A stretch of DNA of 64,000 bases, from contig CACNRW010000012.1 in the NCBI GenBank assembly GCA_902622875.1, positions 1 to 64,000 on the forward strand, given 5' to 3'. The DNA comes from an uncultured SAR116 cluster alpha proteobacterium. Lineage in GTDB: Bacteria; Pseudomonadota; Alphaproteobacteria; Puniceispirillales; Marisalimonadaceae. The position numbers and the translations under genes are program-made. The notes below the pieces were generated by a model, which worked only from the letters and a program-made list of their open reading frames with translations, was not told the DNA's origin and searched no databases. This document shows, piece after piece, positions 10,122 through 34,708 of the stretch. Numbering within the stretch: the first letter of the stretch is position 1; the number at the start of each line of letters is the position of its first letter.

Positions 10122-11433
10122 CGTTAGGTAAAAATAAGACAATGCTTGGAAATGCAATTAAAACGCCTACTGTAATAACATCTGCAACAAAAAACGGCGC
10201 ACAGCCTCTAAAAACATCTTGTACAGGAATGTCTGGGCGGACTCCACTCACAACAAAACAATTTAAACCAATTGGTGGAGTTATAAGGCAAAGCTCTGCC
10301 ATTTTTACAACTATAATACCAAACCAGATAGGATCATATCCTAGTGCAATTACTGCTGGTTGAACTACTGGTAAAGTGAGTAGCAACATTCCAATGGCAT
10401 CCATAAACATACCTAAGATCGCATAAACTAATAAAATACAAAGTAAAATAGCTAAAGGTGGATAATCCAATGAAGTTATCCAATTACTGAAAGCATTTGG
10501 CAATCCAGCAAATCCTAAAAATCTGACATATACTAGAACACCCCAAATTATGGAAAAAATCATTACTGTTAGCTTAGCAGTTTCATAGAGTGCAGCCTTG
10601 AGTGCGCTAGCTTTCATTCCCTTTAGAATAGCGATGATAAAGACGACAAAGGCTCCTAGAGCCCCAGCTTCTGTAGGCGTGGCCCAACCAAAATACATGG
10701 AACCAAAAATAATAAAAATAACTGAAAATATTGGAATTGTTGAGGGTAATGAAACGATTTTTTCTTTAAATGAATATATTCTAGTTTTAGGACCCATATC
10801 AGGTTTAAACGAGACAATGCTAACAATTATCAATCCATAAATTATTGCTGAAACTATCCCAGGTAAGAAACCAGCAAGCAAAAGCTGTCCTACTGATTCC
10901 TCAACAATTATAGCATATATAACTAATATAGCACTAGGTGGTATCAAAGTTGCCAAAGTTCCGCCAGCGGCTACAACTCCAGCAGCAAGTTTTCTATTGT
11001 AGCCTTCACGCAACATCTCAGGGATTGCAACCCGAGCAAAAACTGCAGCTGTAGCTGTGCTTGCACCCGAAACAGCTGCAAAGCCAGCAGTTGCAAATAC
11101 TGTAGCTACTGCTAATCCCCCAGGAAGTCTTCCTAACCATCTTTTGGCAGCTTCAAATAAGGATTTTGTTAATCCAGCGTGAAAGGCCAAAAAGCCAATT
11201 AAAATAAACATTGGCAAGATTGACAAAGCATAAGTAACAGCTTTTGAATGTGGAATAGTTCCTGCCATCCCAAGACCTGCAAACATTGCTTTTTCAAGAC
11301 CAAGTTTTGTTGACAATATCCATACTAAACCAGCGGTGCCTGCTAATGCACTAGCAAAAGCTACGCGCATTCCAAAAAAAATCATAAACATCATTATTGA
11401 TGTAACTGTTATGCCAATTTGAAGAGGATCCAA
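10105..11433 (-). CDS. dctM: TRAP transporter large permease (DctM), first system
   Basis: The 442-residue protein has about 12 membrane segments. FFGMRVAFASALAGTAGLVW, the long loop motif VSGASTATAAVFARVAIPEM, AAGGTLATLIPPSAILVIYAI and VKMAELCLITPPIGLNCFVV are the conserved DctM blocks. It forms the sodium-coupled translocation channel of a tripartite ATP-independent periplasmic importer. It follows dctQ by 15 bases in an operon read dctP-dctQ-dctM. The substrate is probably an organic acid. The convergent soxG gene overlaps its end. Confidence 0.95.
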   Translation of the reverse strand: MDPLQIGITVTSIMMFMIFFGMRVAFASALAGTAGLVWILSTKLGLEKAMFAGLGMAGTIPHSKAVTYALSILPMFILIGFLAFHAGLTKSLFEAAKRWLGRLPGGLAVATVFATAGFAAVSGASTATAAVFARVAIPEMLREGYNRKLAAGVVAAGGTLATLIPPSAILVIYAIIVEESVGQLLLAGFLPGIVSAIIYGLIIVSIVSFKPDMGPKTRIYSFKEKIVSLPSTIPIFSVIFIIFGSMYFGWATPTEAGALGAFVVFIIAILKGMKASALKAALYETAKLTVMIFSIIWGVLVYVRFLGFAGLPNAFSNWITSLDYPPLAILLCILLVYAILGMFMDAIGMLLLTLPVVQPAVIALGYDPIWFGIIVVKMAELCLITPPIGLNCFVVSGVRPDIPVQDVFRGCAPFFVADVITVGVLIAFPSIVLFLPNAMQLS

Positions 11434-14932: not shown

Positions 14933-16249
14933 TCAAAAAACTTTCAAAAGAAATAAAGTAATTCCAGGGAATGAGAATAAAAGAATAACCCTAAAAATAT
15001 CACTTACTAGAAATGGTAAAACACCCTTAAAGGTCTCTGAAATGCTTACGTCGCCAGCCATTTTATTTATTATAAAAACATTTAATCCAACAGGTGGTGT
15101 TATCAAACCAACTTCAACAACTATAAGGGTTAATATTCCAAACCATATTGCTGTTTCTTCAGGTGTCATTCCAAATTCAAGTGTCATGATTAACGGGAAA
15201 AAAACAGGAATAGTTAAAAGTATCATGGCTAAACTATCCATTAAACAGCCTAAAAATAGATATAGGACAAGAATACAGGCTACAATTAAAAAAGGAGAAA
15301 GATTATTTTCTAATGCTATTTCTCCAAGTTGGTTTGGTAGTTGAGTTAAAGCTATGAAAGAATTAAAAAACTCAGCACCTAACAACACTAAAAATATCAT
15401 AGCTGATGTAATTGCTGTACTTTCAATTACTTCTACCAAGTCTTTAAGCTTAAAGTTTTTATTTAAAATGGCAATTAAACCTGCTCCACCTGCTCCTATT
15501 GCTCCTCCTTCTGTTGGGGTAAACCAGCCTAAATATATTCCTCCAATCATAGTCAAAAAAATTAAAATGATTTGCCAGATATTTTTAAATAATAAAAATC
15601 TTTCTTTCCAAACAACTCTATCTTTTGTAGGCCCGGAGTTTTCCACAAACCTTACGTATAATGCAATTGCTAAAATATATCCTAACGCAGCTAAAATACC
15701 CGGAATAAAAGCTGCTAAAAACATTTTAGCAATGTTTTGTTCAGTCAAAATAGAATAAATTATTAAAATCACTGATGGAGGTATCAATATACCTAAAGTT
15801 CCACCAGCGGCTAATGTGCCTGTGCTAAGAGCTCCAGAATATCCTAGTCTTCTTAGTTCAGGAAGAGCTACTTTACCCATTGTTGCAGCAGTAGCTAAAG
15901 AAGATCCACAAATTGCACCAAAACCTGCACATGCACCTATTGCAGCCATTGCAACACCGCCTTTTCGATGACCTAAGCAAGCACCTGTAAATTTAAATAG
16001 TGCTTCGCTCATACCAGCTTTTCCAGCAAAGTTTCCCATTAGTAAAAAAAGAGGTATGACAGATAAAGAGTAATTTGAAAATAAATGCCATGCACTCGTT
16101 TTAATCTGAGACAAAATTGGAAGCCAACCAGCAATTAAGATGGTTCCAGTACATCCAACTATTAACATAGATAGGCCAATAGGTATGCGTAGAGCTAGCA
16201 TAGAAAATAATACTGGAAAAGCTAGTATACCAAGTGTAAATTTATCCAT
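14933..16249 (-). CDS. dctM: TRAP transporter large permease (DctM), second system
   Basis: The protein has about 438 residues and 12 helices from the ATG at 16249 (MDKFTLGILAFPVLFSMLALRIPIG). This start is chosen because the DctM similarity begins there and dctQ ends 5 bases upstream; the longer reading frame would overlap dctQ. Conserved blocks are GSSLATAATMGKVALPELRR, AAGGTLGILIPPSVILIIYSI and LIVVEVGLITPPVGLNVFII. It is the channel subunit of a second TRAP importer. The direction, away from the adjacent meta-cleavage operon with the binding protein nearest to it, suggests an aromatic or other carboxylate as substrate. Confidence 0.94.
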   Translation of the reverse strand: MDKFTLGILAFPVLFSMLALRIPIGLSMLIVGCTGTILIAGWLPILSQIKTSAWHLFSNYSLSVIPLFLLMGNFAGKAGMSEALFKFTGACLGHRKGGVAMAAIGACAGFGAICGSSLATAATMGKVALPELRRLGYSGALSTGTLAAGGTLGILIPPSVILIIYSILTEQNIAKMFLAAFIPGILAALGYILAIALYVRFVENSGPTKDRVVWKERFLLFKNIWQIILIFLTMIGGIYLGWFTPTEGGAIGAGGAGLIAILNKNFKLKDLVEVIESTAITSAMIFLVLLGAEFFNSFIALTQLPNQLGEIALENNLSPFLIVACILVLYLFLGCLMDSLAMILLTIPVFFPLIMTLEFGMTPEETAIWFGILTLIVVEVGLITPPVGLNVFIINKMAGDVSISETFKGVLPFLVSDIFRVILLFSFPGITLFLLKVF

Positions 16250-27834: not shown

Positions 27835-28437
27835 TTGTTAGAATGGATCTTAGATGTATCTCAAATAATAATTGCAGATATTGTTTTGTCTGGGGATAAT
27901 GCTTTAATAATTGGAATGGCTGCATCAGCAGTTCCAGAAGAAAGTCGAAAAAAAGTAATTTTTATAGGGCTGATGGCGGCAGCCATTTTAAGAGTTTTAT
28001 TTGCTCTTGTTGCATCTTATCTCATAAGTATACCCGGACTGCTTCTATTAGGTGGATTGTTGCTTTTTTGGGTGTGTTGGAAATTTTATGGAGATATAAA
28101 AGAATTTTCCTCTAATAATGAGGAAAAAGAAAAACTTCAAAAAGATGTTTCAGGTAAAGGGATAAAAGCAGCACTTATAACTATCATAATAGCTGACGTA
28201 TCCATGTCACTTGATAATGTTATTGCAATAACTGCAATAGCAAGAGATAACAAAACATTATTAATCTTAGGCATAGCATTTGCCATATTAATAATGGCGC
28301 TATTTGCAACGGCTATAGTTAAATTATTAACCAAATTTAAGTGGTTATCTTATCTAGGTTTAATATTTCTTGTTTACCTATCGTCAAAGATGACCTTTGA
28401 TGGTTGGTTGCAACTTTATCCTTTGTTAAAAAGTTAA
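27835..28437 (+). CDS. TerC/YjbE-family integral membrane protein
   Basis: The 200-residue protein has about six helices. Two repeats hold the family motifs: DIVLSGDNALIIGMAA (residues about 15-30) and IADVSMSLDNVIAITAIA (about 116-133), whose acidic residues lie in the membrane. TerC relatives include metal ion exporters, notably for manganese. The start is TTG at 27835, supported by AGGAG about 9 bases upstream and by the family N-terminus LEWILDVSQIIIADI. It is convergent with the TRAP permease, with stops one base apart. Confidence 0.9.
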   Translation: MLEWILDVSQIIIADIVLSGDNALIIGMAASAVPEESRKKVIFIGLMAAAILRVLFALVASYLISIPGLLLLGGLLLFWVCWKFYGDIKEFSSNNEEKEKLQKDVSGKGIKAALITIIIADVSMSLDNVIAITAIARDNKTLLILGIAFAILIMALFATAIVKLLTKFKWLSYLGLIFLVYLSSKMTFDGWLQLYPLLKS

Positions 28438-28438
28438 G

Positions 28439-30496
28439 CTACGATCCCAACCATTTTGGAAACCAAAGAGCTATGTCTGGTATAAACATGACCAGAAGCA
28501 TTCCAGTTATTTGAAGAGCAATAAATGGTAACACTGATAGAAAAATTTCTTGCAGAGTTATATCAGCTGGTGCAACAGATTTTAGCCAAAAACATGCTGG
28601 GCCAAAAGGAGGCGATAAGAAATATATTTGAATGTTCATTACGAACAACACACCAAACCAAACTGCAGCCCATTCTGGCTCTAATCCTAATTCAGGGGCC
28701 ATACCAACGACAACTGGAGCGAAAACTGGAACTGTAATAAATGCTATGGCTATCCATTCCATAAATGTACCAAGTATGACTAGAATACCCATCATAACAA
28801 AAACTATTCCAATTGCAGGAAGTCCTAATCCAGAAAACAATGACCTCATAAAATCTGCGCCACCGATTAAGTTATAAATACCAACAAAAGCAACAGCTCC
28901 CAAAATCAACCAAATAATTGTACCTACCGTCGACATTGTACCCGCCAGTGCTATTTGTAAAAGATTCCAGCTATAAGCGTTTCTAAACCAGGCAACGAAA
29001 ATAGCGCCCAAAACACCTACTGCTGCAGCTTCAGTAACTGATGCTATACCTCCATATATTGACCCCATAACACAAAAAATTAAGAATATACTTAGAAAAA
29101 CGGCATATAATTTATCCTTTGACATTTTCATGTCTTTTTGACGAGCTTTGGCAACTTCCTCAGCTGTTGGTGCCATAGCTGGATTTAAATTACATCTTGC
29201 TAGTACATATATTGCATAAAGACCTGCAAGCATTAAACCTGGAACCGCACCAGCCATAAACAAGTCTCCTATCGCAACTTGAGCAGATAAACCATAAATA
29301 ATCATAATAATACTTGGCGGAATCAGTGTTGCTAATGCTCCTGACGCGCATATTAGTCCTATAGACATTTTTCGATCATATCCAAGTCTTAAAAGTTGAG
29401 GTAAAGCTACAAGTCCAAGCATGACAATTTCACCGCCCATGACACCAGACATTGCAGCTAACACAACAGCAACAGCAATTGTTTGTATTGCAACTCCTCC
29501 ACGGAGTTTTCCTGCAAAAATTGACATTGCATCAAATAAATCTTCAGCTACTCCAGCTCTTTCTAGAATAGATGCCATTAACACAAAGAGTGGAACTGCA
29601 ATTAAAGGATACTTTTCAAGTAAACCAAAAGCGTTTGTAGAAACTAAGTATAATCCTCCATATCCAAAATAACAAAGAGCACTAAGGACTGACACAAATA
29701 AAGTTACAACTCCCAACGGCATGCCTGTCATCATCAAAACGAGCATAAGGGCAACAATTAGTAAACTTGCAGTTCCTATATTCATGTCTTGCATATTTAG
29801 ATAATCTTGCGGATTAATGTGAGTTCCAACAGCAGAATATATAGAATTTATGGAACCAAAAACACTTGTTTCTCCCATCAAGTGAACAGCAATAACACAT
29901 ACAATTCTTAAAATAACTATACCGCAAATAAACAAAACAATTTGTTTAGCAATTTTAGAGGAAAAGTGACGGTAAAGATTGATCATTAGTTGGGTTAAGT
30001 AAGTCATTGCTCCAATGGTAAGCATTGACTTCAAAATCATTGGTTGGGGAGAATTCCACGCACTCCCTGCCTTTTCCAGCATCATCACTGAATCGAGCGC
30101 TCTTATCACAGAGTCGTCAATTAATAGCCACAGAGCTATAACCCCAACTACATAAGCAATAAAGTCAAGCCACCACTTTCCTTTATCCGAAGCCATAATA
30201 TAAAAAACTGTAATACCTATATGTCGCTTGTGAAGTGTTACATATGCTGCAGATAACATCCATGCTGTAGCAGCAAGAACCATTACAATTTCAAAAACCC
30301 ACTGAGTTGGAGCATTAAATACATATCTAGAAATGACTTCAAAACCTGTAACAGCTGCACAAACTAGATATAGTTGGGCAACAGCAAGCCCAGAAAATTT
30401 ACTAAAATGATCAAAGAAAGCAAAACTATCTTTACCTGATTCAAAATTTTCCATATTGTCTAGATCAGTCTCATTCCTTTGGATCATTTCCGACAT
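28439..30496 (-). CDS. Fused TRAP permease DctQM, third system
   Basis: The 685-residue protein combines a DctQ domain (residues about 25-200; FEVISRYVFNAPTQWVFEIVMV) with a DctM domain (about 230-685; PLGVVTLFVSVLSALCYFGY, MSGVMGGEIVMLGLVALPQL, CASGALATLIPPSIIMIIYG, NIQIYFLSPPFGPACFW). Such 4TM/12TM fusions occur in a subset of TRAP systems and unite both membrane subunits. A GGGGGAAG ribosome-binding site precedes the ATG at 30496. The binding protein is on the opposite strand, 272 bases away, rather than in the same operon. Confidence 0.94.
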   Translation of the reverse strand: MSEMIQRNETDLDNMENFESGKDSFAFFDHFSKFSGLAVAQLYLVCAAVTGFEVISRYVFNAPTQWVFEIVMVLAATAWMLSAAYVTLHKRHIGITVFYIMASDKGKWWLDFIAYVVGVIALWLLIDDSVIRALDSVMMLEKAGSAWNSPQPMILKSMLTIGAMTYLTQLMINLYRHFSSKIAKQIVLFICGIVILRIVCVIAVHLMGETSVFGSINSIYSAVGTHINPQDYLNMQDMNIGTASLLIVALMLVLMMTGMPLGVVTLFVSVLSALCYFGYGGLYLVSTNAFGLLEKYPLIAVPLFVLMASILERAGVAEDLFDAMSIFAGKLRGGVAIQTIAVAVVLAAMSGVMGGEIVMLGLVALPQLLRLGYDRKMSIGLICASGALATLIPPSIIMIIYGLSAQVAIGDLFMAGAVPGLMLAGLYAIYVLARCNLNPAMAPTAEEVAKARQKDMKMSKDKLYAVFLSIFLIFCVMGSIYGGIASVTEAAAVGVLGAIFVAWFRNAYSWNLLQIALAGTMSTVGTIIWLILGAVAFVGIYNLIGGADFMRSLFSGLGLPAIGIVFVMMGILVILGTFMEWIAIAFITVPVFAPVVVGMAPELGLEPEWAAVWFGVLFVMNIQIYFLSPPFGPACFWLKSVAPADITLQEIFLSVLPFIALQITGMLLVMFIPDIALWFPKWLGS

Positions 30497-30621
30497 TTAC
30501 TTCCCCCAAGTTATTTTCAAAAATTTATATTTTTATCTTGCAATTGTTTGAGATTTATCAATTATAAATAATATCTATTAGAGACATAAATTTAACTATG
30601 TCAAGAACCAAGGGGGAAAAG

Positions 30622-30744
30622 ATGGCGAAACCAGTAAGAAGTGATCATGTTGATACGTATGGTCCATGGGCTTGGGTAGCTGGAATGGCTTTTGCGGGTC
30701 TTGTAACATGGATCATGTTTTATATAGCTGACGGCTTCAGTTAA
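30622..30744 (+). CDS. 40-residue single-helix membrane peptide next to TRAP genes
   Basis: A short frame starts at ATG 30622 with a strong AGGGGGAAAAG ribosome-binding site and encodes 40 residues. A charged N-terminus (MAKPVRSDHVDTYGPW) precedes one hydrophobic helix (WAWVAGMAFAGLVTWIMFYI) and a short ADGFS tail. It ends 23 bases before dctP and is clearly codon-like, with no competing frame. It resembles no family I know. Its place between the fused permease and the binding protein suggests a small accessory subunit or assembly factor of this TRAP system. Confidence 0.75.
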   Translation: MAKPVRSDHVDTYGPWAWVAGMAFAGLVTWIMFYIADGFS

Positions 30745-30767
30745 TTTTCACAAGAGGAGGAGAAAAA

Positions 30768-31784
30768 GTGAAAAAATATCTAATAAGTGCTTTAGTAGTT
30801 GCAGGTTTAACCTTTACAGGTGCTGCAAGTGCAAAGAAGTTAAAATTTCAAATGAGTTCCAAGGCTGGTGACTGGGCGCATACCTACATGGCAAAACACG
30901 CTCCAGTATTATCAGATCTAACTAACGGAGAACTTCAGATTGAAGGATTGCCAACTAAGTCTGTTGTACCACACAGGGAAACTATTGATGCGGTAGCAAA
31001 TGGAATTTTAGATGGTGACTTTAATGCAATAGCTTATTTTGCAGGAAGGGATCCAGCTTTTGCAATCATGGGTGATTTGATTGCGGGTTACGATACTCCA
31101 AAACAATATCAAGAATATTGTATGCATGGTGGTGGTAAAGAAATGCTACAAAAAATCTATGATAAAGTTTTACCAGGCAAAATTCATGTACTAGGTTGTG
31201 GCCCTTATGGAAAAGAAGCTCTTGTTTCTAAGGTTCCAATTAACGGTGTTGCAGATCTTAAAGGTGTGAAAATTAGATCACCTGAAGGTTTGGCTGCAGA
31301 TGTTTTCAGAAGAGCAGGTGCTTCACCATCTTCACTTCCTTTCTCTGAAGTTTATACTTCACTAGAAAAAGGTATTGTTGATGCAGCTGATGCTTCTGTG
31401 TACATAAACAATCATGCTAGTGGTTTCCACAAAATTGCTAAATACCCACTTTACCCAGGTATTCACTCAATGGCTAACCTTCAAACTATTATTAACAAAA
31501 AAGTTTATAATAAGTTAAGTAAGCAAAACCAAACAGCTTTAACAGTCTGGACATACTGGACTTGGACAGCTAAATTAAGGGATGCTGGTTTAGAAGGAAG
31601 AGCGCAGGTTGCTAAGGATAAAGCTGCTGGTGATTTAACGATTATAGATTGGCCTGTAAGTGAAAGAGCGAAGTTCAGAAAAATTGCAGTAGATGCATGG
31701 AATTCCGCAGCTTCAAAAAGCCCACTTGCAAAAGAGGCTTTAGATTCTAATCTAGCTTATATGAAAAAGATAGGTTTACTCTAA
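30768..31784 (+). CDS. dctP: TRAP transporter periplasmic binding protein (DctP), third system
   Basis: The 338-residue protein starts at GTG 30768, with GAGGAGG upstream and a signal peptide (KKYLISALVVAGLTFTGAASA). VADLKGVKIRSPEGLAADVFRR contains the conserved carboxylate-binding arginine, and SEVYTSLEKGIVDAADASVY the second conserved block. WTYWTWTAKLRDAGLEGR in the C-terminal part is tryptophan-rich. It would feed the divergent DctQM fusion. Lone binding protein plus fused permease is a different organisation from the two other TRAP systems in the window. Confidence 0.93.
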   Translation: MKKYLISALVVAGLTFTGAASAKKLKFQMSSKAGDWAHTYMAKHAPVLSDLTNGELQIEGLPTKSVVPHRETIDAVANGILDGDFNAIAYFAGRDPAFAIMGDLIAGYDTPKQYQEYCMHGGGKEMLQKIYDKVLPGKIHVLGCGPYGKEALVSKVPINGVADLKGVKIRSPEGLAADVFRRAGASPSSLPFSEVYTSLEKGIVDAADASVYINNHASGFHKIAKYPLYPGIHSMANLQTIINKKVYNKLSKQNQTALTVWTYWTWTAKLRDAGLEGRAQVAKDKAAGDLTIIDWPVSERAKFRKIAVDAWNSAASKSPLAKEALDSNLAYMKKIGLL

Positions 31785-31795
31785 AATTAAATGTT

Positions 31796-31832
31796 AAAAA
31801 AGCTTGTTGATTAGTAATCAGCAAGCTTTTTT
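31796..31832. terminator. Bidirectional terminator overlapping the amidase stop
   Basis: A 17-bp stem with one wobble pair (arms 31796-31812 and 31816-31832, loop about 3 bases) has A-tracts on the left and T-tracts on the right, so it can end transcription from both sides. It follows the dctP stop by 11 bases. The TAA stop of the convergent amidase gene (31811-31813) lies at its loop, so the amidase 3' coding end forms one arm. Confidence 0.82.
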
Positions 31833-33130
31833 ATTTCTTGAAGAATATACTCGGCAATTTTTAATAATTTAAAGTCTTCATTCCAAGATGATATGATCTG
31901 TACCCCAATCGGAAGACTGTCTTCACCTTTTAAAAGTGGAAGACTAATTGCAGGAACTCCCATCATTGTCCAATAACCATTAAAAATTGCATTACCAGTA
32001 TTCATTAGGTCTCTTGGAGCTTGACCTGTTGCCGCTGGAGTAATTATTACATCAAATTTGTTGAAGAACTTACTTAATGTCTGCTGCATTTTTTTTGCAT
32101 TTTCAATGGCTTCTATATATTGTTTTGCTGAGACTGGAATTCCAGCTTCAATCCTAGATTTGGTGAATGGGTGAAGTTTTTCTTTTTCAGATTCGTAATA
32201 ATGAGATAATGACTTTGCAATAGAACCATTCATAATTACTTCGTGGGAAAGAGCTGCTTCGTTGAAATCATTACCAAGATTGAGTTCTTCAATATCAAAA
32301 GGTGAGTTTTCAACAAATTTTATTATTTGTTCTTGCATGTCTCTATCACCAATATCCCATACCGGACCTTTGACGAATGCAAATTTAGGCGTCTTAATTA
32401 CATAGTTTTGTTTATAATTATATTGTTTAATCATATCTAAATCTTTTTCATCATAAGATAAAATAACTGAAGCTACTAGATCAATGTCACAAATTGAATT
32501 CGCATAAATTCCTGGATGGTCTAATCGTTGTGATATTGGGGACATGCCGTGTCTTGAAATAGTCCCAAAAGTAGGTTTTAACCCTAAAATCCCAGTAAAT
32601 GATGCTGGCCTTAAAATAGAACCACCTGTCTGAGAGCCAATTGCTAATGGTACCATATTGTCAGAAACCGCTGCTGCTGATCCAGAGGAGGATCCTCCTG
32701 GTGTACATTCTAAATCTTTTGGATTTTTTGTTTTGCCGGGCCCAGATAGTGCAAACTCAGTTGTTACACATTTACCCATAATGACTGCCCCAGATTCCTT
32801 TAATAATTTAACTAGATGTGCATCCTCTTTCGGCATTCTGTTTTTACATATTGATGATCCATTTTCAGTAGGCATGTCTTTAGTATCAATGATGTCTTTG
32901 ATGCCAATAGGAAGACCATTAAGTTTACCAGGATTTTTATCTTTCCACCTTTTGTCAGCAAGTTTAGTTTGTTGGATTACTTGTTCATGATTTAAATAAT
33001 TCCAAGCACCTACTAATGGCTCTCTAACTTTAATACGATCCAAAAAAGCTGTAACATATTTTTCAGAAGTGAGTTCACCTCTCTTCATCATATTCAAAGC
33101 ATCCATAGCATTTAATTTGGTTAAATCCAT
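31811..33130 (-). CDS. Amidase-signature family hydrolase
   Basis: The 439-residue amidase-signature enzyme has the Ser-cisSer-Lys triad visible as Lys78 (LPIGIKDIIDT), cis-Ser in GGSSSGSAAAV (about residue 147) and the nucleophile Ser171 in GSQTGGSILRP. The family hydrolyses amides; members include GatA, AtzE and aryl-amidases. No GatB or GatC lies nearby, so a tRNA amidotransferase role is unlikely. A GAGGA site precedes the ATG at 33130. It follows a RidA gene by 15 bases, which points to nitrogen compound breakdown. Confidence 0.9.
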   Translation of the reverse strand: MDLTKLNAMDALNMMKRGELTSEKYVTAFLDRIKVREPLVGAWNYLNHEQVIQQTKLADKRWKDKNPGKLNGLPIGIKDIIDTKDMPTENGSSICKNRMPKEDAHLVKLLKESGAVIMGKCVTTEFALSGPGKTKNPKDLECTPGGSSSGSAAAVSDNMVPLAIGSQTGGSILRPASFTGILGLKPTFGTISRHGMSPISQRLDHPGIYANSICDIDLVASVILSYDEKDLDMIKQYNYKQNYVIKTPKFAFVKGPVWDIGDRDMQEQIIKFVENSPFDIEELNLGNDFNEAALSHEVIMNGSIAKSLSHYYESEKEKLHPFTKSRIEAGIPVSAKQYIEAIENAKKMQQTLSKFFNKFDVIITPAATGQAPRDLMNTGNAIFNGYWTMMGVPAISLPLLKGEDSLPIGVQIISSWNEDFKLLKIAEYILQEIKKLADY

Positions 33131-33679: not shown

Positions 33680-34708
33680 ATGCCAACAATAGCTTACCTT
33701 GATACTTTACCAGCACAAAATGGTCTAGATATGTTGTACTCTCAGACTAAAGTAAATATTCTTAAGGTTAATAGTTTTGATAGCGAAGAAAAATGTTTAT
33801 CAATTTTAAAAAAAGCTGACGCTTATCAGGTAGGAGCAGCTAGGGATGAAGTACCAAAACATTTGCAAGTTGATAAAAAGTTTTTAAGAAAGGTGCCTAA
33901 TTTACTTGTTATTTCATCTTCTGGTGCAGGATATGACACTATTGATGTAGATGCATGTTCGGATGCAGGTATTTTAGTAGTAAATCAAACGGGTGGAAAT
34001 GCCGAAGGAGTTGCTGAGCATGCTGTTGGAATGATCTTAAGTTTGTTTAAGAGAATTGGTGAATGTGACCATGCTCTTAGAAGAGGTTGGAATGAACCCA
34101 GGGTCAGTCTTATGGGTAAAGATCTTTTAAATAAAACGGTTGGAATAATAGGCCTTGGCAACACTGGTGGTAGGGTAGCTGAAATATGTAAAATTGCATT
34201 TAATTGTAATATTCTAGCTTATGATCCATATTTGTCTGATGATAATTTTCATAAAAAAAATGCTAGCAAAGTGGAACTTGATACTTTGTTAGCTGAAAGC
34301 GATGTGGTTTCTGTGCATGTTCCATTAAATAAAGAGACAAGTAACATGCTTAATAAAGTTTCATTCAAAAAAATGAAAAAGGGTAGTTATTTTGTTACGA
34401 CGTCAAGAGGATCAATTCATAATGAAAATGATTTGTATGATATTCTTAAGGAAGGACATTTAGCAGGTGCGGGACTTGATGTATGGGAATTTGAACCTCC
34501 TCCATCAACACATAAGCTTCTTGAACTTGAAAATGTAATAGCAAGCCCGCATACAGCGGGTATTACTAAAGATAGTCGTGATAAAATGTCTGAATATGTT
34601 GCAACGCAGCTTTTAGATTTATTTGATGGAAAGGATCCAGCAAGGCCAGTTAATCCTGAAGTATTAGACACTTATAGAGAAAAATTTAAAAAAATATTAA
34701 TTAAATAA
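33680..34708 (+). CDS. D-2-hydroxyacid dehydrogenase family protein
   Basis: The 342-residue NAD-dependent dehydrogenase of the D-isomer-specific family has the Rossmann motif VGIIGLGNTGGRVAEICK (residues about 155-172). The catalytic set is present as Arg in VTTSRGSIHNE, Glu in DVWEFEPPPS and His in ASPHTAGIT. The N-terminal half is the substrate domain. The family includes glycerate, lactate and phosphoglycerate dehydrogenases and cannot be narrowed by eye. It shares a divergent region with RidA and amidase and is followed by an SDR gene after 24 bases. Confidence 0.9.
   Translation: MPTIAYLDTLPAQNGLDMLYSQTKVNILKVNSFDSEEKCLSILKKADAYQVGAARDEVPKHLQVDKKFLRKVPNLLVISSSGAGYDTIDVDACSDAGILVVNQTGGNAEGVAEHAVGMILSLFKRIGECDHALRRGWNEPRVSLMGKDLLNKTVGIIGLGNTGGRVAEICKIAFNCNILAYDPYLSDDNFHKKNASKVELDTLLAESDVVSVHVPLNKETSNMLNKVSFKKMKKGSYFVTTSRGSIHNENDLYDILKEGHLAGAGLDVWEFEPPPSTHKLLELENVIASPHTAGITKDSRDKMSEYVATQLLDLFDGKDPARPVNPEVLDTYREKFKKILIK

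Follow-up and report, generated by a model that had tools for sequence, protein, structure and literature searches.

A conserved single-helix membrane peptide is a probable fourth subunit in one clade of DctP-type TRAP transporters

The canonical DctP-type TRAP transporter (TC 2.A.56) has three components, the substrate-binding protein DctP and the permease parts DctQ and DctM, the last two either separate or fused as DctQM. An extra protein in a TRAP operon is known from TeaD, a soluble, cytoplasmic, nucleotide-binding universal stress protein whose gene accompanies those of the ectoine transporter TeaABC. Outside the TRAP systems, MetS of the MetPS methionine transporter is one of the small subunits or modulators of transporters. 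TRAP systems are described as three-part (PMC5812351, PMC11574862), and we found no single-helix fourth subunit in the TRAP reviews and papers searched, a search that left most subscription papers outside its reach. Small, mostly single-helix proteins are known from other membrane assemblies, among them AcrZ (AcrB), KdpF (KdpFABC), CydX and CcmD; at about 30–70 amino acids, they either belong to large membrane complexes as subunits or modulate them allosterically (PMC7267776, PMC10903887), and AcrZ and KdpF are single-helix partners that modulate their transporters (PMC7267776).

The window analyzed here, a 64,000-nucleotide stretch from an uncultured SAR116 alphaproteobacterium, encodes a TRAP system with the same domains as the canonical one (PF03480, PF04290 and PF06808), but also an additional gene for a single-helix peptide. 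In contrast to soluble TeaD, this product is a predicted membrane helix of 40 amino acids. None of AcrZ, KdpF, CydX, CcmD and MetS is linked to TRAP permeases, and neither the peptide nor an alignment of 27 members of its family matched any entry in Pfam, NCBIfam or the PDB. Because the small protein travels with one TRAP branch, we think that these ‘three-part’ importers probably have a tiny fourth subunit.

A short gene next to a TRAP permease

The features of the locus are as follows.

28439..30496, minus strand: DctQM fusion permease (PF04290 + PF06808), pointing away from the small ORF; domain search
30612..30616, plus strand: Shine-Dalgarno core of the small ORF, GGGGG, kept in relatives, there mostly as GGAGG; sequence
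30622..30744, plus strand: coding sequence of the 40-residue single-helix membrane peptide, a candidate TRAP-linked small subunit; sequence, conservation, selection and AF2 model
30754..30762, plus strand: Shine-Dalgarno of dctP, gaggaggag, inside the 23-nt gap; sequence
30768..31784, plus strand: dctP, TRAP substrate-binding protein (PF03480), starting with GTG; domain and structure searches
31795..31833, plus strand: terminator-like inverted repeat and T-run after dctP, closing the small ORF–dctP unit; one such element, against about 1.0 expected by chance

The small ORF (MAKPVRSDHVDTYGPWAWVAGMAFAGLVTWIMFYIADGFS) starts with ATG at 30622, stops with TAA at 30742–30744, and is preceded by the purine-rich Shine-Dalgarno aagggggaaaag. 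Its stop lies 23 nt from the GTG of dctP on the same strand. An earlier sequence-only reading of this DNA had given the same coordinates and 40 residues, a ribosome-binding site and a position between DctQM and DctP, and we found each of these as described, with the Shine-Dalgarno conserved in relatives. An alternative in-frame ATG at 30598 would yield 48 amino acids and has no Shine-Dalgarno. We favored the start at 30622 because within the genus the start codon drifts at a single position (TTG in 13, GTG in 8 and ATG in 5) behind the same Shine-Dalgarno, and because other genera lack the extension from 30598.

The small ORF is a real gene under purifying selection, and we count it as one because it is conserved, not because of its length. 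In 23% of cases, a dinucleotide shuffle of the 271-nt intergenic gap produced an ORF of at least 40 codons, and length was dropped as evidence for this reason. Across 20 distinct nucleotide sequences from the genus, the pooled pN/pS of the small ORF was 0.129, compared to 0.095 for DctP residues 1–140, and the differences at codon positions 1, 2 and 3 numbered 480, 258 and 2200, which shows purifying selection at the protein level. A chance ORF, which the insignificant length taken by itself would allow, has virtually no probability given this conservation, the selection and the copies in relatives; the pN/pS analysis refutes it.

The 27 members share a pattern: a short polar tail, followed in most by Y/F-G-x-W, then a hydrophobic stretch of 18–22 residues with an invariant Gly and an invariant Phe, and at the C-terminus ADGF or a short variant of it. 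In SAR116 the N-terminal tail is neutral, in other members acidic with charges down to -8, and the charge rule fixes no topology. AF2 predicted one helix at residues 9–36, with a pLDDT of about 80 over the whole peptide and of 96 in its core, in agreement with the charged N-terminus and single helix proposed from the sequence. Scanned against Pfam and NCBIfam, the 27 members gave nothing better than E 0.04, which places them in no curated family of small transporter subunits.

The peptide had also been called undocumented and below the annotation threshold. The gene is indeed often missed, and it matches no family, but the description is too strong for some homologs, which are annotated as ‘hypothetical protein’ in records of Acuticoccus, Sulfitobacter and Marinovum. 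No gene is listed at the site of the small ORF in Thalassospira or in Hyphomicrobiales bacterium UR115 (the plasmid gene table is incomplete). The small-protein family is new; the linked TRAP genes are ordinary.

Distribution of the small gene and its permease

Within the genus, 27 of 36 genomes carry the small gene, and every copy sits between the QM ortholog and DctP; strong matches were present in two further genomes of the order (G039 and G053). Eight of the nine genus genomes without the gene also have no QM ortholog, their paralogs being at most 36% identical in the QM search, and in the ninth (G020) QM is interrupted by the contig end. Searching 84,980 species genomes yielded 42 relatives. 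Homologs are known here from SAR116, many other alphaproteobacterial groups and two records outside Alphaproteobacteria, in both marine and soil bacteria. One host outside Alphaproteobacteria, G645, looks like a recipient by transfer, because 81 genomes of its family held no more copies. Another genome, G712, has two TRAP systems of the clade described below, and each is accompanied by a separate, diverged copy of the small gene. One refuting condition named by the sequence-only reading, a lack of homologs at equivalent positions in relatives, was checked and did not hold: homologs lie beside the cognate permease.

We scored the M domains of 150 loci for an adjoining copy of the small gene. 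All M domains at least 56% identical to the one in the window had a copy, except for L139 and L140, which lie at contig edges, and G254; every M at most 54% identical lacked it. In a maximum-likelihood tree of M, the copies fell within one clade with 100/100 support, in which 35 of 37 rows have an adjacent copy, a count that is circular for those rows whose neighbors of M helped to build the profile. Loci L184–L187, L192 and L173 were found first by the genome-wide profile search and only afterwards seen beside M. As for the two negative rows of the clade, one is at a contig edge and the other belongs to a genome with a copy elsewhere (G254).

Outside the clade, the 320 nt behind each M contained no small membrane ORF with a Shine-Dalgarno. 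Since this small-ORF scan used no profile, the absence there is not mere insensitivity of the profile. Seven other complete DctM genes of the same genome were examined, and none is flanked by such an ORF. The window itself has two DctM genes besides the DctQM fusion, at 10144–11397 and 14960–16213 (both minus strand), and neither has a small membrane ORF with a Shine-Dalgarno beside it. Weak profile matches inside long ORFs were discounted as chance hits.

The family is therefore confined to one permease clade, with a single orphan, L072, seen without a close permease. This copy (L072:3465–3590, in a Filomicrobium MAG) lies behind a gene that by eye is sulfatase-like. No TRAP gene lies closer to it than about 3.5 kb, and the rest of the assembly lacks a close QM. 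In G254 the small gene (L172:1468–1605) adjoins a gene identified by eye as threonine-aldolase-like, and the permease is on another contig; G346, in which the small gene is tail-to-tail with M, is a relative of this genome. In G442 the small gene and DctP form a pair on L067 and the QM is on a separate contig, L139, with its N-terminus cut by the contig end; this QM may be unlinked, since the pair is preceded by an apparently unrelated gene. Orphan and displaced copies such as those of Filomicrobium and G254 are what one would expect of a small membrane protein that is independent, perhaps toxin-like or with a function of its own, and came to be linked by chance. The clean co-occurrence and co-localization with a single permease clade, seen in several families and gene orders, make that account extremely unlikely, and we saw no antitoxin-like partner.

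Gene order in relatives

The homologous short ORF lies beside the permease in differing gene orders. The small gene and P are divergent from QM in SAR116, Sulfitobacter (L104) and Roseovarius (L070). The order is P-QM-small in Acuticoccus (L102), Thalassospira (L103), L071, L110, L111, G437 and G167. Where Q and M are split, the small gene follows M (with P in front, P-Q-M-small), as in Marinovum (L105), L077/L114, L115–L118, L187 and L192; genomes with the small gene after M in a split system include G100, G221, G325, G645 and G712. In Marinovum the stop of M and the start of the small gene overlap as ATGA, and in G346 the small gene is tail-to-tail with M.

Because many relatives place the small gene after the permease, the partner that stays constant is the permease and not DctP, and because the layout varies, neither a shared leader nor a shared promoter explains the linkage. 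The proposal that the gene is transcribed with DctP fits the SAR116 layout but not these relatives. In SAR116 the small ORF is short, comes first in the presumed dctP transcript and lies 23 nt ahead of dctP, as would a regulatory leader peptide, an upstream ORF whose translation controls dctP and whose product is irrelevant. We consider such a leader very unlikely: selection acts at the amino-acid level, many relatives have the small gene last, after QM or M and apart from dctP, the arrangement in G346 is tail-to-tail, and all products are membrane helices bearing conserved motifs.

A candidate fourth subunit and its transporter

A functional link of the peptide to this TRAP clade is strongly supported. 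From purifying selection, co-occurrence with the permease and adjacency maintained through rearrangements, we conclude that the peptide is quite likely a fourth, accessory single-helix subunit, in the inner membrane, of one clade of DctP-type TRAP transporters. Gene linkage and distribution in one clade support the candidate small accessory subunit suggested by the sequence-only reading; we infer that the peptide is translated, takes up a membrane topology, binds QM and affects transport. Its helix, which spans about residues 15–36 from the conserved YGxW to ADGF, would most likely pack against the Q/M permease, and may stabilize it or tune its elevator cycle. AcrZ and KdpF, acting on their transporters, would serve as a working analogy. 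The peptide is no obvious substitute for the linker helix of fused systems, because a helix is predicted between Q and M here (residues 181–207 of the fusion, in a low-confidence AF2 model). That model of QM was built from seven sequences only, had a mean pLDDT of 51 and was not used for fold searches.

Strict linkage, a single helix and small size would suit equally well a membrane-embedded regulator or inhibitor, like SgrT or MgrB, or an assembly or stability factor that is not a stoichiometric subunit, and other transporters have small regulators of this sort (PMC7267776). A mere regulator would be lost or moved more often, however, and the peptide is kept in nearly all clade members, so we regard this alternative as unlikely, if a serious one. 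The fourth-subunit reading itself has to explain the orphan L072 and the displaced copy of G254, as well as published cryo-EM structures of other TRAP permeases, which were described without such a subunit. To our knowledge, those structures belong to other clades. That the whole clade is four-component, with the helix gained once at its base and obligate for transport coupled to the substrate-binding protein, we hold to have slightly less than an even chance.

Mechanistic models of TRAP transport, in which an elevator permease is strictly coupled to the binding protein, rest on structures without a further subunit. If the peptide is a subunit, it would be a new architectural component and a possible control point, in a clade of abundant SAR116 and other alphaproteobacteria, and heterologous reconstitution of clade systems from P, Q and M alone may fail. 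Absent from every library searched and often overlooked in annotation, the small gene is a concrete target.

DctP, DctQ and DctM domains are encoded together at the locus, as in other DctP-type TRAP systems. The nearest solved structures to DctP are 4pe3, then the lactate-binding TTHA0766 and, more distantly, 2hzk, which we take to be the alpha-keto-acid receptor TakP (PMC1839085). Genes for D-2-hydroxyacid dehydrogenases lie by or near the TRAP system in three lineages (33680–34708 in the window, L108:3599–4582 and L109:189–1160), and other neighbors in the clade encode a glycerate kinase (L104), an IlvD/Edd dehydratase (L105) and an isopropylmalate-dehydrogenase-type enzyme (L187). Because of these neighboring enzyme genes, hydroxy or sugar acids are the likely cargo, and judged by gene context the clade probably imports them. 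On the other side of the permease, a gene for a TerC/YjbE-family membrane protein (27835–28437, plus strand) is convergent with the QM gene and ends 1 nt from its end; a very similar gene follows QM in G020 (L140).
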